A stretch of 37,426 bases of DNA from a virus. Both the position numbers and the translations under genes were made by a program. A model generated the notes under the pieces. The model searched no databases, was not told where the DNA came from, and saw only the letters and a program-made list of their open reading frames with translations. Below, one piece after another: positions 4,607 to 37,426 of the stretch. Position 1 is the first letter of the stretch. Every line of letters starts with the position of its first letter. The stretch spans positions 1 to 37,426 of IMG/VR virus record IMGVR_UViG_3300049846_000250, one strand, 5' to 3'.

Positions 4607-7236
4607 TGGCAACTGTTGCCGGCACTGAGGTTGACCTGATGCCTACTGAAGGCATGAGGGAAGAGGCGCAGCGGTATCGCGATTGGAAGGCTGATGGCAA
4701 AGCAGGTGGCACTGAGGTTGCCGCGGCCAGGTCGCGTCAGATCCTGAGCGGTGATGAGTTATCACCTGACACAGTGATCACGATGGCGGCATGGTTCGCC
4801 CGCCATGAGGTTGATAAGCAAGGCGAGGGATTCAGCCCCGGTGAGGATGGCTATCCATCAGCCGGTCGCGTTGCATGGGCCGCATGGGGCGGTGATGCTG
4901 GGCAGAGTTGGGCGAATGAGAAGGCGGATAGAATCAAGGCATTGCAGGATAGACAAATGGAAGAGGCGCGCCCTTATCCAAATGAACATGCCGCGAGGTT
5001 GACTGATCCCGATCAGTACGACGAACTGCGCCGGGAGAATGGCGCCGGCGGTGAAGGGATTGATTTCATCTACGGAATAAAGGAAGGCGAGAGCGAGATT
5101 CAGGCAGTGCGGTTTGACGCGCAGCAATTCACGCCATCCGAAGCGCGTGATTGGCTGAGTGAGCACGAGATGGATCCGATCATGTTTGAGGAGGCAACAG
5201 GCGAGCAGCGCGTGCTGCGTGCTGAACCTGATGAGCTTTCAGAGGGTGACTTTGTGCAGTGGGATTCGAGCGGTGGCACTGCCCGCGGCCGGATCGAGCA
5301 TGTAATGCGCGAGGGCACGCTGGGCGTACCCGGCACTGAGTTCAGCATTGAAGCCAGCGCTGATGATCCGGCTGCATTGATTCGGATCTACAGCGAGGGC
5401 GAGGATGGATGGGAAGCCACCGAGACACTGGTGGGCCATAAATTCTCGACGCTGCGCAAGATCGCTGAGCTGCGTGCGATGCCCGGCATCGGGCGGCACC
5501 AACGCGCTGAGATCACAACCTTCGATGAGGTTGAAGATCGCACCTATGAGTTTCCTTTCAGCTCTGAGTATCCCGTTGCCCGTTACTTCGGCAATGAGAT
5601 CCTGAGCCACGAGGGCAATGCCGCTGATCTCAGTCGCCTGAATGATGGCGCACCGCTGCTGTTCAACCACAACCCTGATCGTGTGATTGGTGTTGTGGAG
5701 CGTGCATACATCGATGGCAAACGTCGCCGCGGTTATGCACGTGTGCGGTTCAGCCGCAATCCATTCGCTCAGGAAGTCCTGAACGATGTAAAGGATGGCG
5801 TTCTTCGGAATGTCTCCTTTGGCTACTCCATCGACAAAATGGAGGAGCGCGGCAGCGGTGACTTTGTTGCCACTGCCTGGTCTCCTTATGAGGTTTCTGT
5901 TGTCTCGGTGCCGGCTGATCCCGGCGTCGGGATCGGCAGATCCTTAGAGGCCGAGCAAGCTGCCTCGGCAGCACCTACACCTGATCCCATTCCTGCAATG
6001 GAAAACACCACCCCTGATCTGGCAGTGGTGCGGGCCGAAGCCGCTGAGGCTGAGCGCTCCCGCATCGCTGGCATTTCTGCACTGACCGAAAAGCACGGTA
6101 TGGCCGATCTCGGCCGCCAGCTGATCGAGTCTGGTCGTTCTATCGACGAGGCCCGCGCTGCTGTGCTCGACAACCTCGACATCAAACAGGAGCCTGTGAA
6201 CATGAGCGCCGCTGAAATCGGCCTGACTGAGAAGGAGAGCCGCAGCTTCTCCTTCATGCGTGCCATTAACTATCTGGCCAACCCGACCGACCGCGCTGCC
6301 CGCGAGGCTGCTGCATTCGAGATCGAGGCATCTGAAGCTGCTGCTGCAAAGCTCGGCCGTCAGTCCCGCGGCATCACCATCCCCCAGGATGTGCTGCGCC
6401 GTGACCTGAACGTCGGTGCTGCAACCGCCGGCGGCAACCTGGTTGCCACTGAGCTGGATGCTGGCAGCTTCATCGATCTGCTGCGCAATGCCTCGGCTCT
6501 GGATCAGGCTGGCGCCACTGTGCTGACCGGCCTTACCGGCAACGTGGCCATTCCCCGTCAGTCGGGGGCGGGGACCGCTTATTGGGTTGCTGAATCCGGT
6601 GCTCCCACCGAGTCGCAGCAAACCGTGGATCAGGTGAGCCTGACTCCTAAGACCGTGGCTGCCTTCACTGACTACAGCCGCCGCCTGATGATCCAGTCCT
6701 CCATCGATGTGGAGAACATGGTGCGCACCGACTTGGCTCGTGTGCTGGCACTCAAGATCGATCTGGCTGGCCTCTATGGCACCGGCTCCAACGGTGAGCC
6801 CCTCGGCCTGAAGCTGACCACCGGCATCGGCACCGAAGACTTCGCCGCTGATACCCCTACCTTCGCTGAGGTGGTGGCACTTGAGAGCGACGTGGCAACC
6901 GCCAACGCACTGCTCGGCAACCCCGTCTACCTGATGAACGCTGCCATGCGCGGCGGCCTCAAGACCAAAGCCAAGGACGCAGGTTCCGGCATGTTCGTCA
7001 TGGAAGGCAATGAAGTGAACGGCTATCAGGGTGTGCTGTCCAACCAAGTCGCCTCTGGCGATCTGTGGTTTGGCAACTTCGCTGACCTGATCATTGGCTA
7101 CTTCTCCGGCCTGGATCTGATGGTGGATCCCTACACCAACAGCACCTCCGGCACCGTGCGCGTGGTGGCTATGCAGGATGTGGACATTGCCGTCCGTCAC
7201 CCTGAATCCTTCAGCCGCGGCAACAACACCCTCTGA
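4606..7236 (+). CDS. Prohead protease-scaffold-major capsid protein fusion
   Basis: 876 residues in at least four parts. Residues 1-200 hold two domains common at the front of phage protease genes (the segment WFARHEVDKQGEGFSPGEDG, then SEIQAVRFD.QQFTPSEARDWL). Residues about 210-285 look like a Tudor-like DUF2945 domain (EGDFVQWDSSGGTARGRI). Residues about 303-450 are a U35-type HK97 prohead protease with the expected His355 (LLFNHN) and Ser404 (RNVSFGYS). A scaffold-like helical stretch (about 465-530) leads to an HK97-fold major capsid protein (533-876, PF05065-like) with the ITIPQDVLRRDL and AYWVAESGAPTES segments. Fused protease-capsid genes are known; self-cleavage would release the mature shell protein. 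An internal start at 6202 is supported by an AGGAG. Confidence 0.9.
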   Translation: MATVAGTEVDLMPTEGMREEAQRYRDWKADGKAGGTEVAAARSRQILSGDELSPDTVITMAAWFARHEVDKQGEGFSPGEDGYPSAGRVAWAAWGGDAGQSWANEKADRIKALQDRQMEEARPYPNEHAARLTDPDQYDELRRENGAGGEGIDFIYGIKEGESEIQAVRFDAQQFTPSEARDWLSEHEMDPIMFEEATGEQRVLRAEPDELSEGDFVQWDSSGGTARGRIEHVMREGTLGVPGTEFSIEASADDPAALIRIYSEGEDGWEATETLVGHKFSTLRKIAELRAMPGIGRHQRAEITTFDEVEDRTYEFPFSSEYPVARYFGNEILSHEGNAADLSRLNDGAPLLFNHNPDRVIGVVERAYIDGKRRRGYARVRFSRNPFAQEVLNDVKDGVLRNVSFGYSIDKMEERGSGDFVATAWSPYEVSVVSVPADPGVGIGRSLEAEQAASAAPTPDPIPAMENTTPDLAVVRAEAAEAERSRIAGISALTEKHGMADLGRQLIESGRSIDEARAAVLDNLDIKQEPVNMSAAEIGLTEKESRSFSFMRAINYLANPTDRAAREAAAFEIEASEAAAAKLGRQSRGITIPQDVLRRDLNVGAATAGGNLVATELDAGSFIDLLRNASALDQAGATVLTGLTGNVAIPRQSGAGTAYWVAESGAPTESQQTVDQVSLTPKTVAAFTDYSRRLMIQSSIDVENMVRTDLARVLALKIDLAGLYGTGSNGEPLGLKLTTGIGTEDFAADTPTFAEVVALESDVATANALLGNPVYLMNAAMRGGLKTKAKDAGSGMFVMEGNEVNGYQGVLSNQVASGDLWFGNFADLIIGYFSGLDLMVDPYTNSTSGTVRVVAMQDVDIAVRHPESFSRGNNTL
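6188..6204 (+). promoter_or_regulatory. Internal ribosome binding site and ATG for separate capsid protein
   Basis: AGGAG at 6188-6192 lies 9 bases before an in-frame ATG at 6202 inside the fusion gene. Translation from here would give a 344-residue protein that begins MSAAEIGLTEKESRSF, exactly where the major capsid domain starts after the scaffold-like segment. This could supply extra shell protein without protease. An alternative is that the N-terminus is made only by cleavage near this point and the AGGAG is chance. Confidence 0.4.
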
Positions 7237-18836: not shown

Positions 18837-19468
18837 CACTTCGTCTTAACGGCAGCACATCGGGTTACACCGAGATCGACGCTCCGGCGGTGGCTGGGTC
18901 GAACACGCTGGTGCTTCCGACTGGCAATGGTTCAGCCGATCAAGCACTGGTCACGAACGGCAGCGGCAACCTGAGCTTTGCTGATCGCGGGCGGATGGTG
19001 CTGGTGACTGCTCAAGCAACCACTAGCGGCACGTTCAAGGACTTCACCAGCATCCCAAGTTGGGTCAAGCGGATAACGGTGATGTTCCAAGGCGTAAGCA
19101 CAAATGGGACTAGTCCTGTCCAAATGCAAATAGGCGATTCAGGCGGAATAGAAACATCGGGCTATTCTGGTGCTACACAAGTAGTAACTACGAATTCTTC
19201 TTTTTCTGCAGCTTTTCAAATTGATCCTACTGGACAAGGCAATGCTTCTGCTATTCGAGACGGTATTTTGCAATTATGTTTGCTAAATAGCACCACCAAT
19301 TTATGGGCATGTTCTGGGGTGCTTGGTGGAAACACGGCAAGTCCCTACATGATTTGGCTAGGTGGTTCAAAAGCCCTCTCCGGCACTTTAGATCGAGTCC
19401 GCATCACCACCGTCAACGGCACCGACACGTTTGACGCTGGCACCATCAACATTCTTTACGAGGGCTAA
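18833..19468 (+). CDS. Tail fibre / adhesin with low-GC tip
   Basis: 211 residues. The start MTLRLNGSTSGYTEIDAPAV, then NTLVLPTGNGSADQALVTNG, is a frequent fibre attachment module and echoes the LPNADATVSGHALKSDGAGN segment of the fibre at 16401. The rest (residues 80-211) is a beta-rich domain likely to be the receptor-binding tip. The DNA from about 19100 to 19330 is clearly poorer in GC (about 43-45% by eye, with runs such as TTCTTCTTTTTCTGC) than its neighbours, a sign of exchange of the tip by recombination. Confidence 0.65.
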   Translation: MTLRLNGSTSGYTEIDAPAVAGSNTLVLPTGNGSADQALVTNGSGNLSFADRGRMVLVTAQATTSGTFKDFTSIPSWVKRITVMFQGVSTNGTSPVQMQIGDSGGIETSGYSGATQVVTTNSSFSAAFQIDPTGQGNASAIRDGILQLCLLNSTTNLWACSGVLGGNTASPYMIWLGGSKALSGTLDRVRITTVNGTDTFDAGTINILYEG

Positions 19469-25450: not shown

Positions 25451-25610
25451 TGATGGGTTCCTGTTCAGAATTGAGCCATTCAATCTGCGACCACCATTCC
25501 AGCCACGTGTCAGCAGCGATCAGCTTGGCCTCGGTGAGGCTGGAGGCTGTGACGCACTCCAGCACGTTGGCGCTGGGGATCTTGAAGTAGAAGCGGCGGG
25601 GGTTAGTCAT
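25443..25610 (-). CDS. 55-residue hypothetical protein
   Basis: An ATG at 25610 opens 55 residues: MTNPRRFYFKIPSANVLECV, then TASSLTEAKLIAADTWLEWW and an acidic end. It overlaps the previous gene by 8 bases and the next by 8, filling what would otherwise be a gap in the leftward train. The alternation of strand, helix and Trp-rich end looks like a small alpha/beta protein. Too short for the usual gene callers. Confidence 0.55.
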   Translation of the reverse strand: MTNPRRFYFKIPSANVLECVTASSLTEAKLIAADTWLEWWSQIEWLNSEQEPING

Positions 25611-25878
25611 ACTTCAACTTGAGGTGTTCTTCATACTTCAACTTGAGGTGTTCTTCATAGCCTTCTTCAGATGCTTGCTTGATGGGACCGGGGAGTTCTA
25701 CCCAGTTGGCAAACTCGGTGATTTTCATGTTGTGATAAGCCCAAGCGGTCACAAGCTGGATGCTTGCAGCGTGGATGCGCTCTCTTTCAATTCTTGTTAG
25801 AAGCATCCCATTCAGCACGCTTAGCTCGTAAACGGCTTTGGCGAGTTCTTCCTTGGTCGGCTCAGGTTTGATAGTCAC
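25603..25878 (-). CDS. Helical early protein with a C-terminal octapeptide duplication
   Basis: 91 residues from a GTG at 25878 (GTGA overlap). A mostly helical protein: EPTKEELAKAVYELSVLNGM, LTRIERERIHAASIQLVTAW, then KITEFANWVELPGPIKQASE. It ends with an exact tandem repeat EEHLKLKY EEHLKLKY followed by D, made by a 24-bp duplication (25610-25657). The DNA here is lower in GC than its neighbours. No family recognised. Confidence 0.6.
   Translation of the reverse strand: MTIKPEPTKEELAKAVYELSVLNGMLLTRIERERIHAASIQLVTAWAYHNMKITEFANWVELPGPIKQASEEGYEEHLKLKYEEHLKLKYD
25610..25657. repeat. Exact 24-bp tandem duplication
   Basis: The 24-base unit TACTTCAACTTGAGGTGTTC followed by TTCA occurs twice back to back (25610-25633 and 25634-25657) with no mismatch. 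It encodes the repeated EEHLKLKY on the minus strand and ends at the start codon of the next gene, which suggests a recent slippage event that kept both frames open. Confidence 0.95.
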
Positions 25879-28924: not shown

Positions 28925-30241
28925 ATGCGCCACTACCTCGAACAATCCGTCTACGACGCCGCTATAGAGCGGTTGGACTTCATCTTTAAGCATTTCACCC
29001 GTGTCTACGTCTCCTTCTCTGGCGGTAAGGACAGCGGTGTTCTCCTCAATCTTGTTTGCGACTACGTGCGAGAGCGCAAACTGCCGATCAAGATTGGCGT
29101 TCAGATCATGGACAACGAGGCCAACTACACCCACAGCGAGGAGTTCATGCATCGCATCCTCCAAGCCAACCGGGACATCCTCGACATCTATTGGTGCTGC
29201 CTGCCTATCACGCTGCCCTGCACCGTCAGCTCTTACGAGATTGACTGGCAGTGCTGGGGTGAGCAGGATCGGCACCGCTGGATTCGCCCCATGCCGCAGC
29301 AGGATTACATCGTCAACCTGCAGAACCATCCCTTTGGCGACCTGTTCATCGAGAACATGGACTACGCCACCTTCTGGGACATGTTCGCGGAGTGGTACAG
29401 CCAAGGGCAGCCATGCGCCAACTTGATCGGCATTCGCACAGTTGAATCGCTTAACCGGTTCCGGGCCATCCTGAACCAGGACAAAGAGACCATGCTTGGC
29501 CGCATGTGGACCAAGAAGAACACCGATCACACCTACAACTGCTACCCCATCTACGACTGGCGCACGGAGGACATCTGGACTGCTAACGCGAAGTTCGGCT
29601 GGGATTACAACAAGCTCTATGACGTGTTCTATATGGCCGGCATCCCAATCAAAAAAATGCGGGTTGCCTCGCCGTTTATGTCAGAGTCCAAATCCAGCCT
29701 CGCCATGTATCGGGTAATCGACCCGCAGATCTGGGCCAGGCTTTGCGCCAGGGTTGGCGGTGCGAACTTCATGGCCACCTATGGCAAACAGCTTGACTAC
29801 AAGTCCTTCAAGCTGCCAGCCGGGCACACGTGGAAATCATTTGTGAAGTTCCTGCTGGCCACATTGCCAGATCAGTCAAGCGCAAATTTTAAGCAGCGCT
29901 TCATCCAATCAATCCGCTACTGGGGCAGGGTGGGGCGCGGTCTTCCTGAGTCGATCATTGACGCGCTCAGCCGTATTGGCATTCGCTTCTACATCAATGG
30001 CACCACACGCCACGGTGGAAACAATCTGCGCCGTGTCGTAATCAAGGTTCCGCCTGATCATCTCGATGATCTCCCGTGCCACAACAGCATGGTCACGTCG
30101 TGGAAGCGCTTCGCCATCACGGTTCTAAAGAACGACCACACCTGCAAATACTTGGGTTTGGCGCCAACGCAAGAGCAACAGCGCCGCCAAAAGTCAATCC
30201 AACGCAAGTACAGCCAAGTCCTTAACCGTTCCGCCAAATGA
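28925..30241 (+). CDS. ibrA: PAPS-reductase-like protein, IbrA/DUF3440 type
   Basis: 438 residues. The PP-loop of PAPS reductase/N-type ATP pyrophosphatases is intact (YVSFSGGKDSGVLLNL, loop residues 32-37) and a second site follows (LIGIRTVESLNRFRAI). The C-terminal half (about 290-438) is the DUF3440 extension with TSWKRFAITVLKNDHTCKYL. IbrA of E. coli, an activator of prophage genes with IbrB, has this build; related enzymes (DndC) activate sulfur for DNA phosphorothioation. Here the next gene is an IbrB-like ParB fused to an EctC domain, overlapping by 4 bases. The true reaction is unknown: sulfur transfer, adenylation of a substrate or DNA modification are all open. Confidence 0.85.
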   Translation: MRHYLEQSVYDAAIERLDFIFKHFTRVYVSFSGGKDSGVLLNLVCDYVRERKLPIKIGVQIMDNEANYTHSEEFMHRILQANRDILDIYWCCLPITLPCTVSSYEIDWQCWGEQDRHRWIRPMPQQDYIVNLQNHPFGDLFIENMDYATFWDMFAEWYSQGQPCANLIGIRTVESLNRFRAILNQDKETMLGRMWTKKNTDHTYNCYPIYDWRTEDIWTANAKFGWDYNKLYDVFYMAGIPIKKMRVASPFMSESKSSLAMYRVIDPQIWARLCARVGGANFMATYGKQLDYKSFKLPAGHTWKSFVKFLLATLPDQSSANFKQRFIQSIRYWGRVGRGLPESIIDALSRIGIRFYINGTTRHGGNNLRRVVIKVPPDHLDDLPCHNSMVTSWKRFAITVLKNDHTCKYLGLAPTQEQQRRQKSIQRKYSQVLNRSAK

Positions 30242-31179
30242 AGATCCTCAACGCCTCACAGCTTCCAGCTGATCGCATTGTCAATTGCCCAAAGGGCGGT
30301 TTCACCAGCCATCGCTTGCTTACGGAAGACGACGGCATGGGATACAGCATGACTAAAACCATCGTGCATCCTGGCAAGCCGCACCGCTGGCACTATCAGC
30401 ACCACCTCGAAACCTGCTACTGCGTCAGCGGCAAAGGGCTGCTGATCAATGAAGCAACGCAAGAAATCATCGCGGTTGGCCCTGATGTGACTTATGTGCT
30501 CGACAAGCACGATGCTCACACGTTTGAAGCCTTAGAGCCCACAACGCTGATCTGTGTTTTCAATCCACCCCTAAAAGGCGACGAACTCCACGATGAGAAC
30601 GACTCTTACCCTTGGCGATCCCCGGTCTACTCTGTCCGCAGTATTCCTATCGAGAAAGTTACCGCCAACGATTACAACCCAAACTCTGTGGCGCCGCCTG
30701 AAATGGCACTACTCGAAACATCAATTTGGGAAGATGGCTACACACAGCCTGTCGTTGTTGTGCATGACGCCGAACGTGACCTATATGTGGTCGTTGACGG
30801 TTTTCACCGATACCTGACGCTGAAGAACAGCCAGCGCATCCGCGAACGTGAAGGCGGCCGCTTGCCTGTGGTTGTGCTCCGCAAAGAGCTGCACGACCGC
30901 ATGGCATCAACCATCCGTCACAACCGCGCTCGTGGTTCGCACAACATCGAGCTGATGAGCGTGATCGTTGCCGAGCTGATCGAAATGGGCAAAGGCGACG
31001 CATGGATCTGCAAGCACATCGGCATGAGCCCTGATGAGCTGCTACGCCTCAAGCAAGTCACCGGACTGGCCTCGTTGTTTCTTGGGAAAGATTTCAGCAA
31101 GGCATGGGACGTGGATCAGATCGACAACATCACAGAGGATCTCGAACGTGAAGCTCAAGAGGATCTGGTTGCCCATTGA
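30238..31179 (+). CDS. ibrB: Ectoine synthase-like cupin fused to IbrB-like ParB domain
   Basis: 313 residues. Residues 1-125 are an EctC cupin. Aligned to EctC with a constant +1 offset, the metal ligands are present: Glu58 (HHLE), Tyr86 (TYVLD), His94 (HDAH). Substrate-side positions are also there: Arg26, Thr41, Cys106 and Phe108 (CVFNP), Glu116 and His118 (DELHDE). Only the family Trp21 is replaced by Phe22. EctC closes the ring of N-acetyl-diaminobutyrate to give ectoine. Residues about 130-313 are ParB/Srx-like, IbrB type: EKVTANDYNPNSVAPPEMAL, IWEDGYTQPVVVV, the DGFHRY motif (188-193), and RMASTIRHNRARGSHN, then an HTH (DAWICKHIGMSPDELLRLKQ). It is coupled to the PAPS-reductase-like gene. 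I know of no such fusion. Confidence 0.85.
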   Translation: MKILNASQLPADRIVNCPKGGFTSHRLLTEDDGMGYSMTKTIVHPGKPHRWHYQHHLETCYCVSGKGLLINEATQEIIAVGPDVTYVLDKHDAHTFEALEPTTLICVFNPPLKGDELHDENDSYPWRSPVYSVRSIPIEKVTANDYNPNSVAPPEMALLETSIWEDGYTQPVVVVHDAERDLYVVVDGFHRYLTLKNSQRIREREGGRLPVVVLRKELHDRMASTIRHNRARGSHNIELMSVIVAELIEMGKGDAWICKHIGMSPDELLRLKQVTGLASLFLGKDFSKAWDVDQIDNITEDLEREAQEDLVAH

Positions 31180-33139: not shown

Positions 33140-34086
33140 CCCTCCGCATCATCGACACCTTCAGCGGCATCGGCGGCTTCTCCCTCGCTGCCCGCTGGCT
33201 CGGCGGCTTCCACACCGTGCAGTTTGTTGAATGGGAGCCCTACTGCCAGCGCATCCTTGCCCAACACTTCCCCGGTATCCCCATCCATGGAGACATCACC
33301 ACCTTCTTCCCCGCACCGGGAGCAGCTGACGTTGTTTGCGGTGGCTTCCCCTGCCAAGACATCAGCACCGCAGGCAAGCAAGCCGGCATCAAACAAGGCA
33401 CTCGGAGCGGTCTCTTTTACGAACTCATGCGAGTCGTTCGCACAGTTCGACCCCGCTACGTCGTCATGGAGAACGTCGCAGCGATCACTTCTAACGGACT
33501 GGGAACCGTTCTCGGTGAGCTGGCCGAGGCAGGGTTTGATGCGGAGTGGGCATGTATTCCGGCGAGTGCTGTGGGAGCCTGCCACCAACGAGATCGGTGG
33601 TGGCTTGTTGCCTACGCCCAGAGCGCAAGAGCCAGGCAGCACAAGCCACACTCACGGGGACAGCTTGAAAGAGGGTGTCTTTGTCAGGCTGGGAATACCG
33701 ACGAAGAAGTACCCGCTGCTCCCAACTCCCAAAGCAGCGGACGGCGAGCGCGGGCGGGACAAGGCGCGGGCGAGGCCGGACATGAAGAGCCGCGAGCTGG
33801 CGACCACAGTGCGGGATCGGATGCTGCCGACCCCAACGGTCAACGACAGCAAGAACAGCACTTTCCCGCCATCGCAGATCGACAGGGACGGCCTCGCTGG
33901 AGTGATGCTCCGCGACGACTCAATCCCGACTGGCGAAGCTACTTATCTGAACCCGTCCTTCGTCGAGGAGATGATGGGCTTTCCGGTCGGGTGGACCGTC
34001 TCAAAGCCCTAGGCAACGCCGTCGTGCCGCAGGTGGCGATGATACCCCTGCAGCGCGTGCTGGATCACCACTGTGCCCAACAATGA
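33136..34086 (+). CDS. C5-cytosine DNA methyltransferase (Dcm type)
   Basis: 316 residues. Motif I IDTFSGIGGFSLAAR, motif IV CGGFPCQDIS with catalytic Cys73, motif VI VMENV, motif VIII CHQRDRWW, and at the end motif IX/X RVDRLKALGNAVVPQV, all in order. The target-recognition region between VIII and IX (about 155-285) is unusually rich in Arg, Gln, Gly and Ala, which is explained by a second gene in the +1 frame across the same DNA. The enzyme would methylate cytosine in a short site, protecting phage DNA from host restriction. No partner restriction enzyme is seen. Confidence 0.9.
   Translation: MTLRIIDTFSGIGGFSLAARWLGGFHTVQFVEWEPYCQRILAQHFPGIPIHGDITTFFPAPGAADVVCGGFPCQDISTAGKQAGIKQGTRSGLFYELMRVVRTVRPRYVVMENVAAITSNGLGTVLGELAEAGFDAEWACIPASAVGACHQRDRWWLVAYAQSARARQHKPHSRGQLERGCLCQAGNTDEEVPAAPNSQSSGRRARAGQGAGEAGHEEPRAGDHSAGSDAADPNGQRQQEQHFPAIADRQGRPRWSDAPRRLNPDWRSYLSEPVLRRGDDGLSGRVDRLKALGNAVVPQVAMIPLQRVLDHHCAQQ
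33287..34012 (+). CDS. Gene nested in the methyltransferase gene, +1 frame
   Basis: 241 residues if started at the ATG at 33287; the open frame runs from 33224. It carries features of a protein I have seen next to or inside C5-methyltransferase genes of phages: EQLTLFAVASPAKTSA near the start, SVSWPRQGLMRSGHVFRRVL, three (L/M)LPTP motifs (GGGLLPTPRAQ, PLLPTPKAADG, RMLPTPTVNDS), and a C-terminal LNPSFVEEMMGFPVGWT. Such consistent motifs over 240 residues are not expected in a chance overlapping frame. The role is unknown; a partner or specificity factor of the methyltransferase is one possibility. Confidence 0.7.
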   Translation: METSPPSSPHREQLTLFAVASPAKTSAPQASKPASNKALGAVSFTNSCESFAQFDPATSSWRTSQRSLLTDWEPFSVSWPRQGLMRSGHVFRRVLWEPATNEIGGGLLPTPRAQEPGSTSHTHGDSLKEGVFVRLGIPTKKYPLLPTPKAADGERGRDKARARPDMKSRELATTVRDRMLPTPTVNDSKNSTFPPSQIDRDGLAGVMLRDDSIPTGEATYLNPSFVEEMMGFPVGWTVSKP

Positions 34087-34423
34087 GACCGATCTGCAGC
34101 AACGCATCCGCCTCGCGCTCGGCACCCGCCCCGATGCCCGGCTGTTCCGCAACCAAGTCGGCTCGCTGCCTGATCCCCGCACCGGCAGGCTCGTCACCTT
34201 CGGCCTTGCCCGCGGATCCGCTGACCTCATCGGCTGGCGCACCATCGTGGTGACGCCTGACATGGTTGGCCAGCAGCTGGCTGTGTTCACCAGCATTGAG
34301 GTCAAGACCCCCACCGGCCGCGTCCGCCCAGAGCAGCACGCATGGCAGCGCACCGTATCGGCCGCCGGTGGTATCGCAGGCATTGCCCGCTCAATCCAAG
34401 ACGCAAACGATCTACTGAGATAA
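34073..34423 (+). CDS. VRR-NUC domain nuclease
   Basis: 116 residues from a GTG, overlapping the methyltransferase end by 14 bases. The VRR-NUC (PD-(D/E)XK) fold is seen: an N-terminal E..LQQRIRLAL helix, RLFRNQVG, GLARGSADLIGW with the catalytic Asp, then SIEVKTPTGRVRPEQHAWQR with the Glu-X-Lys. Phage VRR-NUC proteins resolve branched DNA or act as structure-specific nucleases and often neighbour the primase-helicase gene, as here. Confidence 0.88.
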   Translation: MPNNETDLQQRIRLALGTRPDARLFRNQVGSLPDPRTGRLVTFGLARGSADLIGWRTIVVTPDMVGQQLAVFTSIEVKTPTGRVRPEQHAWQRTVSAAGGIAGIARSIQDANDLLR

Positions 34424-34424
34424 C

Positions 34425-34450
34425 TGGCAACCTGCCAACCTTCCTGCCAA
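34425..34450 (+). repeat. Iteron-like repeats upstream of the primase gene
   Basis: The 52-base gap before the primase holds TGGCAACCTGCCAACCTT (34425-34442) and two copies of CCTGCCAA at 34431 and 34443, a 12-base period. A 16/18 match to the longer word lies in reverse orientation at 36639-36656, after the primase gene. Possible binding sites for a replication protein. Confidence 0.5.
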
Positions 34451-34475
34451 ACTCTGCCGGCGTCTCTGTAGCCAT

Positions 34476-36512
34476 GTGGTAGCCGATCTCCTCAAGCAGC
34501 TCGCCAATATCCCCGACCATTGGGCGCTTGTTGCCGTCGGCAACGACAAGCGCCCATATCAGCCCGAATGGCAAAAGCACCCCATCTCTCGCGAGCAACT
34601 CACCGCTGAGATCACTGCAGGCCGTGCCGTAGCCATTGGCGTGATCGCTGGCCCGCAGTCCGGTGGTCTTCTCTTCGTCGATCACGATGGTCTCGGCGCA
34701 TCAGAGGTGCTCGAGCAGATCGGCGCACCACTCCGTGACCTGCCGAAATCATGGGCCGTTACCTCAGGCCGTGATGGCCGCGTTCAGATCATCTACCAAG
34801 TCCCAGAACCCTTCTGGGCCACCATCAAGACCACCAAGCTGCGCAGCAGCATCAAAGGCGAGCAGTTAGAGCTGAGATGGGCTGGCTGCCAATCCGTTAT
34901 TGCCGGTGCTCACCCGATGACCGGCGCCTACCGCTGGCTCAAAGGCCGCGCACCTGGTGATCTCACCATCGCAGAGGCACCATCGCTACTACTGCAGCAG
35001 ATGCAGCGCCAGAAGCCCGCGCCCGCCCCGCTTCTGCAGCTGCCAGACACCGATATTCAACGCGCACGCGCCTACCTCGCATCAGTGCCAGCAGCTGATG
35101 CCGACGACTACGACGCATGGCTACGTGTCGGCATGGCACTCCACAGCGTTGACGATGCTCTCCTCGCTGATTGGATCCAGTGGTCCACCATCTCCGGCAA
35201 GTTTGAGCCCGGCGCCTGCGAAGCCAAATGGCGCACATTCTCAGCCGCAGCTGGTGGCGTCTCCCTTGGCACCCTTGCTCACCTAGCAGGCCATCAGAAA
35301 AGCCGCACGTCTCCAGCCGCGCGGCCATCCGTCCATGCACCAGATGGCGCAACGAACCCTACGCCAAACCATGGCGGCAAACTCCTCAAGCTCGAATCCA
35401 ATGAGCTCCTCGCCCTGCTCCGTCAGCAGATGGCAGACCGCCTCCGCTGGAACGTCTTCACCAAGACCATCGAGCTCGATCAGCAACCCCTCGAACACAT
35501 TGAGCACTTCTACCTCGCGCTCTCACAGCAAGGCGTGAAGGTCACCAAAGACTTAGCAGCCGATGCCGTCCATGTCGTCGCACTTGAGAACCCATACGAT
35601 CCGGTCCGCGAATACCTCGAACACGTAGCGGATCACATCCCACCCATCACCATCGATCACCTGGCAAGCGCCTACCTGCGCCCCGGTGATCAACCCGGCA
35701 CCCTCTATGACGCCATGCTCAAGGCCACGCTCGTAGCAGCCGTGCGCCGCATCTTCGAGCCCGGCTGCAAGCACGACTCAGCCTGTGTGCTCATGGGTCC
35801 CCAGGGCTGCGGTAAGTCCACCTTCTGGCGCAACCTCGGCGGCCTCTGGTTCAGCGATGCCCTGCGTGACATCGGCTCCAAGGATGACCTCATGGTGCTG
35901 CATCGCTCATGGCTTATGGAATGGGCCGAGCTAGATCACATCACCGGCCGCAAGCACGCCGGCCAAGTGAAGGCATTCCTCACTCAACAGACGGATATGT
36001 TCCGCGCCCCATACCAACGCACCACGGAGGCATTCCCAAGGCGATCCATCATCGTTGGCTCCACCAACCGTGACACCGGCTTCCTAGTCGACGACACCGG
36101 CAATCGGCGGTTCTGGGTCATACCAGTCACAGCCGCCCCGCACATCCCCGTTGATGGCCTGCTGCTGGAGCGTGATGCCATCTGGAGCGCAGCGGTGGCG
36201 GCCTACCGCGCAGGCGAACCCAACCACCTATCACGCGAGCACAGCGCACAGGTTGATCACGAGAACGAGTCCTATCTCGTCGATAGCCCATGGAAGGCAG
36301 CCATTCAGGAATGGGTCAACGCACCCCGCAATGACGGTCGACCCATCACCAGCGAGCTGCTGCTGACCGAAGCGATCAGCAAACCAGTAGAGCGCCAAAG
36401 CCGCGCCGATCAAATGCAGGTGGCATCGATCATGCGCGAGCTCGGCTACCTCAAGCAACGCCAATGGGTCGCAGGGCGCTCTAAGTGGGTCTACTGCCAA
36501 CCTCTCGGCTGA
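34476..36512 (+). CDS. Primase-helicase: prim-pol, PriCT and VirE-type ATPase
   Basis: 678 residues from a GTG. Residues about 10-175 form a bifunctional primase/polymerase (PF09250-like): IGVIAGPQSGGLLFVDHDG with the metal-binding Asp-His-Asp, then SWAVTSGRDGRVQIIY. Residues about 190-275 are a PriCT-type linker (YLASVPAADADDYDAWLRVG). From about 370 a VirE-type helicase ATPase begins: VCVLMGPQGCGKSTFWRNL-like Walker A (about 437-449), WLMEWAELDHITG, and SIIVGSTNRDTGFLVDDTGN RRFWVI. It would start and drive phage DNA replication. Repeats flank the gene on both sides in opposite orientation. Confidence 0.9.
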   Translation: MVADLLKQLANIPDHWALVAVGNDKRPYQPEWQKHPISREQLTAEITAGRAVAIGVIAGPQSGGLLFVDHDGLGASEVLEQIGAPLRDLPKSWAVTSGRDGRVQIIYQVPEPFWATIKTTKLRSSIKGEQLELRWAGCQSVIAGAHPMTGAYRWLKGRAPGDLTIAEAPSLLLQQMQRQKPAPAPLLQLPDTDIQRARAYLASVPAADADDYDAWLRVGMALHSVDDALLADWIQWSTISGKFEPGACEAKWRTFSAAAGGVSLGTLAHLAGHQKSRTSPAARPSVHAPDGATNPTPNHGGKLLKLESNELLALLRQQMADRLRWNVFTKTIELDQQPLEHIEHFYLALSQQGVKVTKDLAADAVHVVALENPYDPVREYLEHVADHIPPITIDHLASAYLRPGDQPGTLYDAMLKATLVAAVRRIFEPGCKHDSACVLMGPQGCGKSTFWRNLGGLWFSDALRDIGSKDDLMVLHRSWLMEWAELDHITGRKHAGQVKAFLTQQTDMFRAPYQRTTEAFPRRSIIVGSTNRDTGFLVDDTGNRRFWVIPVTAAPHIPVDGLLLERDAIWSAAVAAYRAGEPNHLSREHSAQVDHENESYLVDSPWKAAIQEWVNAPRNDGRPITSELLLTEAISKPVERQSRADQMQVASIMRELGYLKQRQWVAGRSKWVYCQPLG

Positions 36513-36693
36513 GGTTGTCAGGCTGAGATCCCTTGCGCCCCAACCCCTCTGCTATCCTTACTAACCTTCTAACCTTAGTATTAAATATATAAAAGGGGAG
36601 GGGTAGGGGTAAAAAGGACCTATAGGGGCAACGTTGACAAGGTCGGCAGGTTGACAGGTGCCGGCCACCATCCGCTCCGCCTACCCTTGGGGC
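36513..36693. other. Candidate replication origin / late control region
   Basis: No gene is seen in this 181-base gap. It contains two tandem CTAACCTT units (36561-36576), an AT-rich stretch (36571-36594), four GGGG runs (36595, 36600, 36606, 36625) able to form a G-quadruplex with one long loop, and two TTGACA hexamers 17 bases apart (36634 and 36651). The second lies in an inverted copy of the word found before the primase gene. AT-rich unwinding DNA plus repeats beside the primase gene suggest an origin. The TTGACA pair could also belong to promoters of the late genes. Confidence 0.5.
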
Positions 36694-37386
36694 ATGGCCC
36701 TATCCATCACCGTTGACACCACCGGCCTGGAAGAGGCTGCAAGGCGGTCCAGCGTGCTTGCTAAGCAGTTGCCCTTTGCCACCTCCCTCGCCCTTAATGA
36801 AGTGGCCTTCAAGGCCCGCACAGCGCTCAATGGCAGCACGCGCCAATACTTCAACGCCCCCACCAAGTTCACTGAGACCGCCTTCCTGGTCCAGAAGTCC
36901 AAGAAGGCAGACCTAGAAGCCATCGTCTATGCCAACAACCAAGAAGGCCGCAACCGTGCTCGTTACCTGCGCTATGGCATCCAAGGCGGCCAACGTGTAG
37001 CCAAGGGCTTCGAGCGCTTCTTTGCTGGTGCTGATAACGACGGCACCCTGCCCCCTGGGGTAGCCCTCCTACCCACCTCCCTGGTCAAGACCACAGCCCA
37101 AGGGAACGTATCCATCGCCACGCTGCGCTCCATCAGCAAAGGACTGAGCACAACCAACAAACGCGGCGGCTTCTTTGTTGGCACACCACGTGGTGCGGGC
37201 AACAGGCCACCTGGTATCTACCGTCGATCACGTGAGCAGCTGTTCCCATACTTCATCGCAGCATCATCAGCACCGCGATACACAGGACGTTTCCCAATCC
37301 AAGACGTGGGCAGCAAGGTGATCAATCGCAACTGGGTCGCAGAACTTGAGGCCGCACTTGAACGTGCGCTGTCAACAGCAAAGTGA
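36694..37386 (+). CDS. Tail completion / minor tail protein (gpZ-like)
   Basis: 230 residues from the ATG at 36694 (a GTG at 36658 would add 12). The start LSITVDTTGLEEAARRSSVL, then LPFATSLALNEVAFKARTAL, is the pattern of lambda gpZ and related tail-completion proteins: an N-terminal strand, a helix of paired hydrophobics and a basic middle (KGFERFFAG, RYLRYGIQGGQR, RGAGNRPPGIYRRSREQLFP). Such a protein usually sits with the connector and terminator genes. Here it is at the right end, but if the genome is circular or permuted it would directly precede the terminase. Confidence 0.6.
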   Translation: MALSITVDTTGLEEAARRSSVLAKQLPFATSLALNEVAFKARTALNGSTRQYFNAPTKFTETAFLVQKSKKADLEAIVYANNQEGRNRARYLRYGIQGGQRVAKGFERFFAGADNDGTLPPGVALLPTSLVKTTAQGNVSIATLRSISKGLSTTNKRGGFFVGTPRGAGNRPPGIYRRSREQLFPYFIAASSAPRYTGRFPIQDVGSKVINRNWVAELEAALERALSTAK

Positions 37387-37395
37387 TTGACGACG

Positions 37396-37412
37396 CCACG
37401 CCGCGTGCGTGG
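37396..37412 (+). terminator. Hairpin after the gpZ-like gene
   Basis: CCACGC (37396-37401) and GCGTGG (37407-37412) form a perfect six-pair stem with a CGCGT loop, 10 bases after the stop, followed by GTCCTTCT. The weak T-run makes termination possible but not certain; it could also be part of the packaging site at the genome junction. Confidence 0.4.
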
Positions 37413-37426
37413 GTCCTTCTGCGGCT

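Follow-up and report, generated by a model that had tools for sequence, protein, structure and literature searches.

An iteron-bearing element behind the Prim-Pol/VapE gene of S-LBS1-like cyanophages as a predicted replication origin

Directly 3' of the vapE gene of the virus record IMGVR_UViG_3300049846_000250 lies a non-coding gap of 181 bases (36513-36693), which raises the question of what its unusual sequence does and to which of the neighbouring genes it belongs. The window analysed here is the whole record, 37,426 bases long with a GC content of 58.7%. The original prediction had read the gap as an origin-like element, and this is still the best-supported explanation, considering its conservation, its linkage to vapE, the concerted change of its repeat words and its likeness to SaPI origins. 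We therefore consider it probable, at roughly 0.85, that the gap holds the origin from which the adjacent Prim-Pol/VapE protein starts replication.

The predicted initiator gene (34476..36512, plus strand) encodes a 678 aa protein combining a Prim-Pol, a PriCT_2 and a VapE-like helicase domain (Pfam PF09250, PF08707 and PF05272) with a C-terminal winged helix, and the gene preceding it encodes a VRR_NUC protein. On the other side of the gap, the minor tail protein gene more likely starts at the ATG at 36694 (36694..37386, plus strand) than at the listed GTG at 36658; relatives align from this ATG, and the phrog_1924 match starts only at residue 16 if the longer reading is taken. With this start, the element lies wholly inside the gap. 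Terminase genes are reached across the record ends. Since tail and terminase genes are adjacent in relatives with 127-base end repeats (G003, G005, G012), the window probably represents an almost complete genome in circularly permuted form. Elsewhere in it, we observed a single gene fusing an ectoine-synthase/cupin-like domain (E 9e-36) with a ParB-like domain (30238-31179), a phage-borne PAPS-reductase/DUF3440 gene (28925-30241) and a perfect 24-base tandem repeat of 2.2 copies (25607-25659).

The motifs that had first singled out the gap are all present: the tandem unit CTAACCTT at 36561 and 36569, the AT-only stretch TATTAAATATATAAAA at 36579-36594, GGGG runs at 36595, 36600 and 36606 and, 15 bases beyond the end of the third, a fourth one at 36625, and TTGACA words at 36634 and 36651, 17 bases apart from start to start. 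In windows of 20, 24, 30 and 40 bases, the AT maximum of the record falls here; at 60 bases it lies at 19163, outside the element. Among 200 dinucleotide shuffles of the window, an AT-only run of 16 and a stretch with 31 AT in 40 bases each arose once, three GGGG runs seven times, a TTGACA pair eight times and four GGGG with loops of up to 20 bases nine times, while a single tandem 8-mer is ordinary (95/200). Taken singly, the motifs are modest; what gives the element weight is its conservation in relatives, along with repeats that the original prediction had missed. The word AGGTTGGCAGG, picked from the element family itself, has 6 matches with up to one mismatch in 37.4 kb, all 6 flanking vapE.

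Within the gap, the repeats form two iteron arrays in opposite orientations around the AT-only core. The left array (36552..36577, minus strand), detected as a TRF array, consists of the inverted repeats TATCCTTA-CTAACCTT-CTAACCTT and reads AAGGTTAG AAGGTTAG on the minus strand. It is followed by the core TATTAAATATATAAAA (36579..36594), marked by its composition, its rarity in shuffles and the AT-richness kept in relatives, which we presume to be the unwinding region, and by a purine tract with the three adjacent GGGG runs (36595..36618, plus strand). Between this tract and the right iterons stands a conserved block, AAAAAGGACCTATAGGGGCAACG (36611..36633, plus strand), with the palindrome CCTATAGG inside and with many of its columns reaching 0.9 or more across 52 relatives. 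The right array (36633..36658, plus strand) comprises three direct iterons, GTTGACAA-GGTCGGCA-GGTTGACA(GG), with a period of 8-9 bp; the TTGACA words are its outer members, and its GGTTGACA repeats run opposite to the inverted left array. Two further sites flank the gene itself, namely a facing iteron pair S over the vapE stop codon (36493..36522, ACTGCCAACCT ... AGGTTGTCAGG) and an inverted cluster U upstream of the vapE start (34423..34453, minus strand; ACTGGCAACCT, CCTGCCAACCT, CCTGCCAAACT), which probably sits in the vapE promoter.

Relatives were gathered by a tail-protein scan giving 56 viral loci, by a VapE scan from which the best 80 of 466 matches were used, and from 9 further genome contigs, including a Cyanobium MAG; the cultured relative is Synechococcus phage S-LBS1 (MG271909). 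Across 87 distinct cases, the DNA behind vapE follows a common design: after an iteron at the vapE stop comes a pyrimidine-rich inverted array, then the AT-rich core, the purine tract, the conserved AAAAAGGANCTATAGGGGCAACG block and finally the direct iterons. This design is plainest in S-LBS1, where GGTTGGGCA occurs four times on one side and the other side carries copies of CCTAACCTA. We also noticed that the S-LBS1 record (L147 34306-34641) carries a second copy of part of the origin region at its end, which is probably an assembly end effect. In three further loci (L009, L011, L077) the vapE frame runs on and stops within the element (stop in CTATAG), so that the protein tail would overlap the predicted origin; for this reason they were left out of the 52-relative conservation count, the 85-sequence survey and the first left-right word test described below.

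We found that the element (taken as 36549-36658) is on average 0.835 identical to the window in 52 distinct relatives whose vapE is 78-98% identical, against 0.573 at fourfold-degenerate vapE sites, and that it exceeds those sites in 52/52 relatives. This pattern indicates that the element is under strong purifying selection. Conservation is highest in the CTAACCTTCTAACC and GGTTGACAGG repeats and in parts of the CTATAGGGG block; the left-array columns 36561-36575 are mostly 0.9-1.0 identical, with a minimum of 0.54 at 36568, and the third GGGG run is poorly kept (0.42-0.67). In the survey of 85 distinct sequences, the AT core conserves composition over sequence (best 20-mer mean 0.83 AT), the purine bias of the tract is kept (mean 0.83) and tandem CTAACCT-like repeats occur in 60, while at least two TTGACA words are found in 10.

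The element also proved to travel with the Prim-Pol/VapE gene and not with the downstream tail gene, as its suggested pairing with the primase gene had implied. A profile built from 17 elements matched 123 loci, with one match each, 120 of them at the vapE 3' end and on the same strand. Where a vapE 3' end had room behind it, the element was present in 122 of 130 loci, which overlap, are redundant and include the 17 training sequences, so that these counts are not independent; the eight lacking it are L134, whose words differ in being GGAACA repeats, and seven remote loci at 33-40% identity. Conversely, it is absent from 24 of the 25 tail-gene loci without vapE within 600 bases, and in two loci where about 2 kb of other DNA separates it from the tail gene (L018, L024) it remains with vapE. 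The sequence CTACCCTTGGGGC (36681..36693, plus strand), immediately before the tail-gene ATG, goes with that gene and is separate from the predicted origin; it may be a late promoter or the start signal of the tail operon. Its TACCCTTGG-N3-ATG arrangement occurs once in the window, and TACCCTTGG is kept before the ATG in 17/25 tail loci without vapE nearby and in 81/93 with vapE near. Based on these findings, we count the element as part of the vapE locus and TACCCTTGG as a motif of the tail gene.

The iteron words were also compared within and between genomes. Among 25 genomes, the S word scored 10.44 against its own right array and 7.06 against those of other genomes (0/20000 permutations), and the U word 9.52 against 8.40 (26/20000), with 12591/20000 for the wrong-strand control. 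Comparing the left (inverted) and right arrays of 22 genomes, a first test gave a weak signal (905/20000) and a second, in which the arms were drawn more tightly and the genomes were more divergent, a clear one (own 7.86, cross 6.43, 0/20000; same-strand control 6349/20000), arm limits and genome list being our choice in both. In the window alone, left and right words are barely above the cross-genome level (own 7, cross 6.7). By these comparisons, iteron words do change together at separate sites of one genome.

The predicted initiator resembles PriRep1. A profile of 30 VapE proteins matched the PDB chain 7pds_A ('Similar to D. nodosus vapE') with E 5.4e-36, and the full-length model, of moderate quality (mean pLDDT 69.7, pTM 0.44), matched 7pds ('The structure of PriRep1 with dsDNA') with a Foldseek E of 4.8e-16 over 442 columns; the helicase core is therefore homologous to PriRep1 by sequence profile and by structure. 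We take PriRep1 to be the SaPI5 protein, consistent with 7ola ('Primase-Helicase in SaPI5'), an entry listed among the same matches. The C-terminal 70 or so residues were confidently modelled as a winged helix with the order helix-helix-strand-strand (block pLDDT 87-96, model residues 41-110). This model aligns with 7pds_B (Z 6.5, rmsd 3.0, 75 residues) no better than with unrelated winged helices, and structure searches otherwise gave uninformative matches to generic winged helices and methyltransferases with E above 0.02. The structure matches listed include no P4 alpha or ORF904 chain, which is not evidence of their absence. Across 39 proteins, when the remainder of the protein is accounted for, winged-helix distance still predicts the distance between iteron k-mers (partial Mantel r 0.38, p 2e-4), a correlation that could instead reflect the physical linkage of the vapE 3' end with the element.

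The origins of staphylococcal SaPI elements are located directly downstream of their initiator gene (PMC7581432), and their oppositely oriented repeats direct two head-to-head hexamers (PMC9894130). By analogy, the SaPI-like layout and the homologous protein suggest the same action here, with the fused Prim-Pol supplying primers. The C-terminal winged helix would bind the iterons, the oppositely facing arrays would load two VapE hexamers head to head, and these would melt the AT core, with the Prim-Pol domain synthesising primers for bidirectional forks. Binding to the iterons upstream of vapE could in addition repress the gene, i.e. autoregulate it.

These upstream copies, together with those at the vapE stop, also speak for a different interpretation, in which the iterons are mainly operators through which VapE or a phage repressor controls vapE, late transcription or copy number, with the origin located elsewhere. 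Iteron proteins often autoregulate. Against this, most iteron copies stand behind vapE, around an AT-only core that operators do not need. Scanning 12 genomes for iteron words with up to one mismatch gave 64 matches in the vapE flanks and 13 elsewhere, of which 3 belong to the repeated end of the S-LBS1 record and 2 lie just inside vapE; apart from that repeated end, no further iteron cluster was found in these genomes, a scan that speaks only to the absence of clusters elsewhere because its words were taken from the elements. The same scan found no distant crr-like cluster, the winged helix and crr both being features of phage P4 alpha replication. Finally, in two relatives (L023, L034; vapE 59%) the whole element is inverted relative to vapE, and so it is not a strand-bound signal of vapE or of the tail gene. 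We therefore regard the operator interpretation as unlikely.

The terminase small subunit gene would lie close by if the genome were closed into a circle, which is compatible with a packaging (pac) or attachment site. We consider this very improbable, since the element follows vapE even where other genes precede the tail gene (L018, L024), and since in S-LBS1 it is found at about 34.3-34.6 kb, some 9 kb from the published terminus at 25,643 (PMC6157547).

Equally, the four GGGG runs inside 34 bases and the strong purine/pyrimidine strand asymmetry, kept in relatives, could point to a switch on the purine strand that acts by a G-quadruplex or an R-loop. The runs, originally proposed as part of the origin, do exist in the window, but they are not conserved: a quadruplex motif (G3+ with loops up to 7) occurs in 6 of 85 relatives and three close GGGG runs in 2 of 85, the third run being the poorly kept one noted above. 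There is thus hardly any chance that such a switch explains the element. Just as small is the chance that the gap serves as a late tail-gene promoter whose -35 box is TTGACA. It does lie upstream of a structural gene, and TTGACA matches the sigma-70 -35 consensus, but no sigma-70-like pair with 16-18 base spacing was found on the plus strand in 34000-37426 (sigma-70 type only); the sole sigma-70-like match, on the minus strand, scores 9/12 and does not exceed the background rate (0.8 expected). Only 10 of 85 relatives have at least two TTGACA, and tail loci without vapE mostly lack the element yet often keep TACCCTTGG at the ATG (24/25 and 17/25). We accordingly rejected the TTGACA words as -35 boxes and read them as iterons.

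The strand-skew check proposed for the origin proved uninformative. The skew switches close to the element in many genomes, and its cumulative minimum fell at about -264 to +2899 bases from the vapE end in 12 genomes, of which G007, G010 and G014 (taken to 40000 bases) and S-LBS1 (with its repeated end sequence) gave imperfect circles. In G006 and G012, where element and tail gene are about 2 kb apart, positive skew begins with the tail and terminase genes; the skew thus follows gene composition and is not an origin signal.

Returning to the predicted origin, one further locus, L037, has at positions 4680-4960 an element that is inverted, scores weakly (E 0.003) and bears GTTACA words in each of its two arms. 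The genes in front of it match DNA-primase families, the first of them having a primase zinc ribbon, and a search for vapE gave no match at this locus. Together with the inversions in L023 and L034, L037, a single case, supports the view of the element as a modular origin cassette. The scaffold of this putative cassette would consist of the gene-end iteron pair, the pyrimidine arm, the AT core, the purine arm, the CCTATAGG block and the direct iterons, and it would persist both through inversion (L023, L034) and with a zinc-ribbon primase in place of Prim-Pol/VapE (L037). More tentatively, we propose that the cassette may be exchangeable, with a fixed scaffold on which the repeat word is rewritten along with the winged helix of the initiator, so that phages sharing a picocyanobacterial host avoid firing each other's origins; we hold this to be possible rather than likely.

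Our analysis offers a concrete, testable origin candidate for S-LBS1-like freshwater cyanosiphoviruses. A natural data set for deciphering the recognition code of the winged helix is at hand in the co-changing words and initiators, and vectors for picocyanobacteria could use the cassette as their replicon. An iteron origin directly behind a self-loading initiator would be of a known kind, and what appears new is its occurrence in cyanophages. The accessible text of the S-LBS1 paper names no origin and makes no mention of the terms iteron, skew, repeat or intergenic, and in the part of the literature covered we recognised no report of such an origin in these phages.

Among known systems, phage P4 alpha is likewise a primase-helicase whose DNA-binding domain recognises repeats at its origin, its primase being of the bacterial Toprim type (PMC4234260), whereas here we find Prim-Pol PF09250 with PriCT_2. 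ORF904 of pRN1 shares the order of archaeo-eukaryotic primase, SF3 helicase and winged helix, with a putative origin just behind the gene, but pRN1 uses a 100-nt stem-loop without iterons, and its authors extend the stem-loop origin to similar phage proteins (PMC4234260). In our case there are iterons and no conserved stem-loop. We rejected a stem-loop origin of this type, as the DNA folding z averages -0.05 over 34 sequences including the window, which itself has a z of +0.74; single relatives fold well (L133, z -3.95; L021, z -2.94). A Prim-Pol/helicase/winged-helix initiator would thus go with iterons and not with the stem-loop that pRN1 and phage BIP-1 had suggested for proteins of this class (PMC4234260).

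The helicase Cch2 of SCCmec attaches by its C-terminal domain to direct repeats between its gene and the next one, at a putative origin (PMC7581432), and the repeats here likewise stand behind the helicase gene. Cch2 differs in having five-base iterons and a separate polymerase-primase, and the part of that source available to us notes no oppositely oriented binding arrays (PMC7581432). The closest likeness is to the SaPI origins and their self-loading PriRep1/Rep helicases (SaPI5, SaPIbov1), which share the origin behind the initiator gene, the opposed iterons (PMC7581432, PMC9894130) and a homologous VapE-type helicase with a C-terminal DNA-binding domain, here a predicted one. The element described here differs from them in belonging to a cyanophage group, in having the Prim-Pol fused in the same protein, and in its own iteron words, its additional iterons over the vapE stop and ahead of the start, and its conserved CCTATAGG block.
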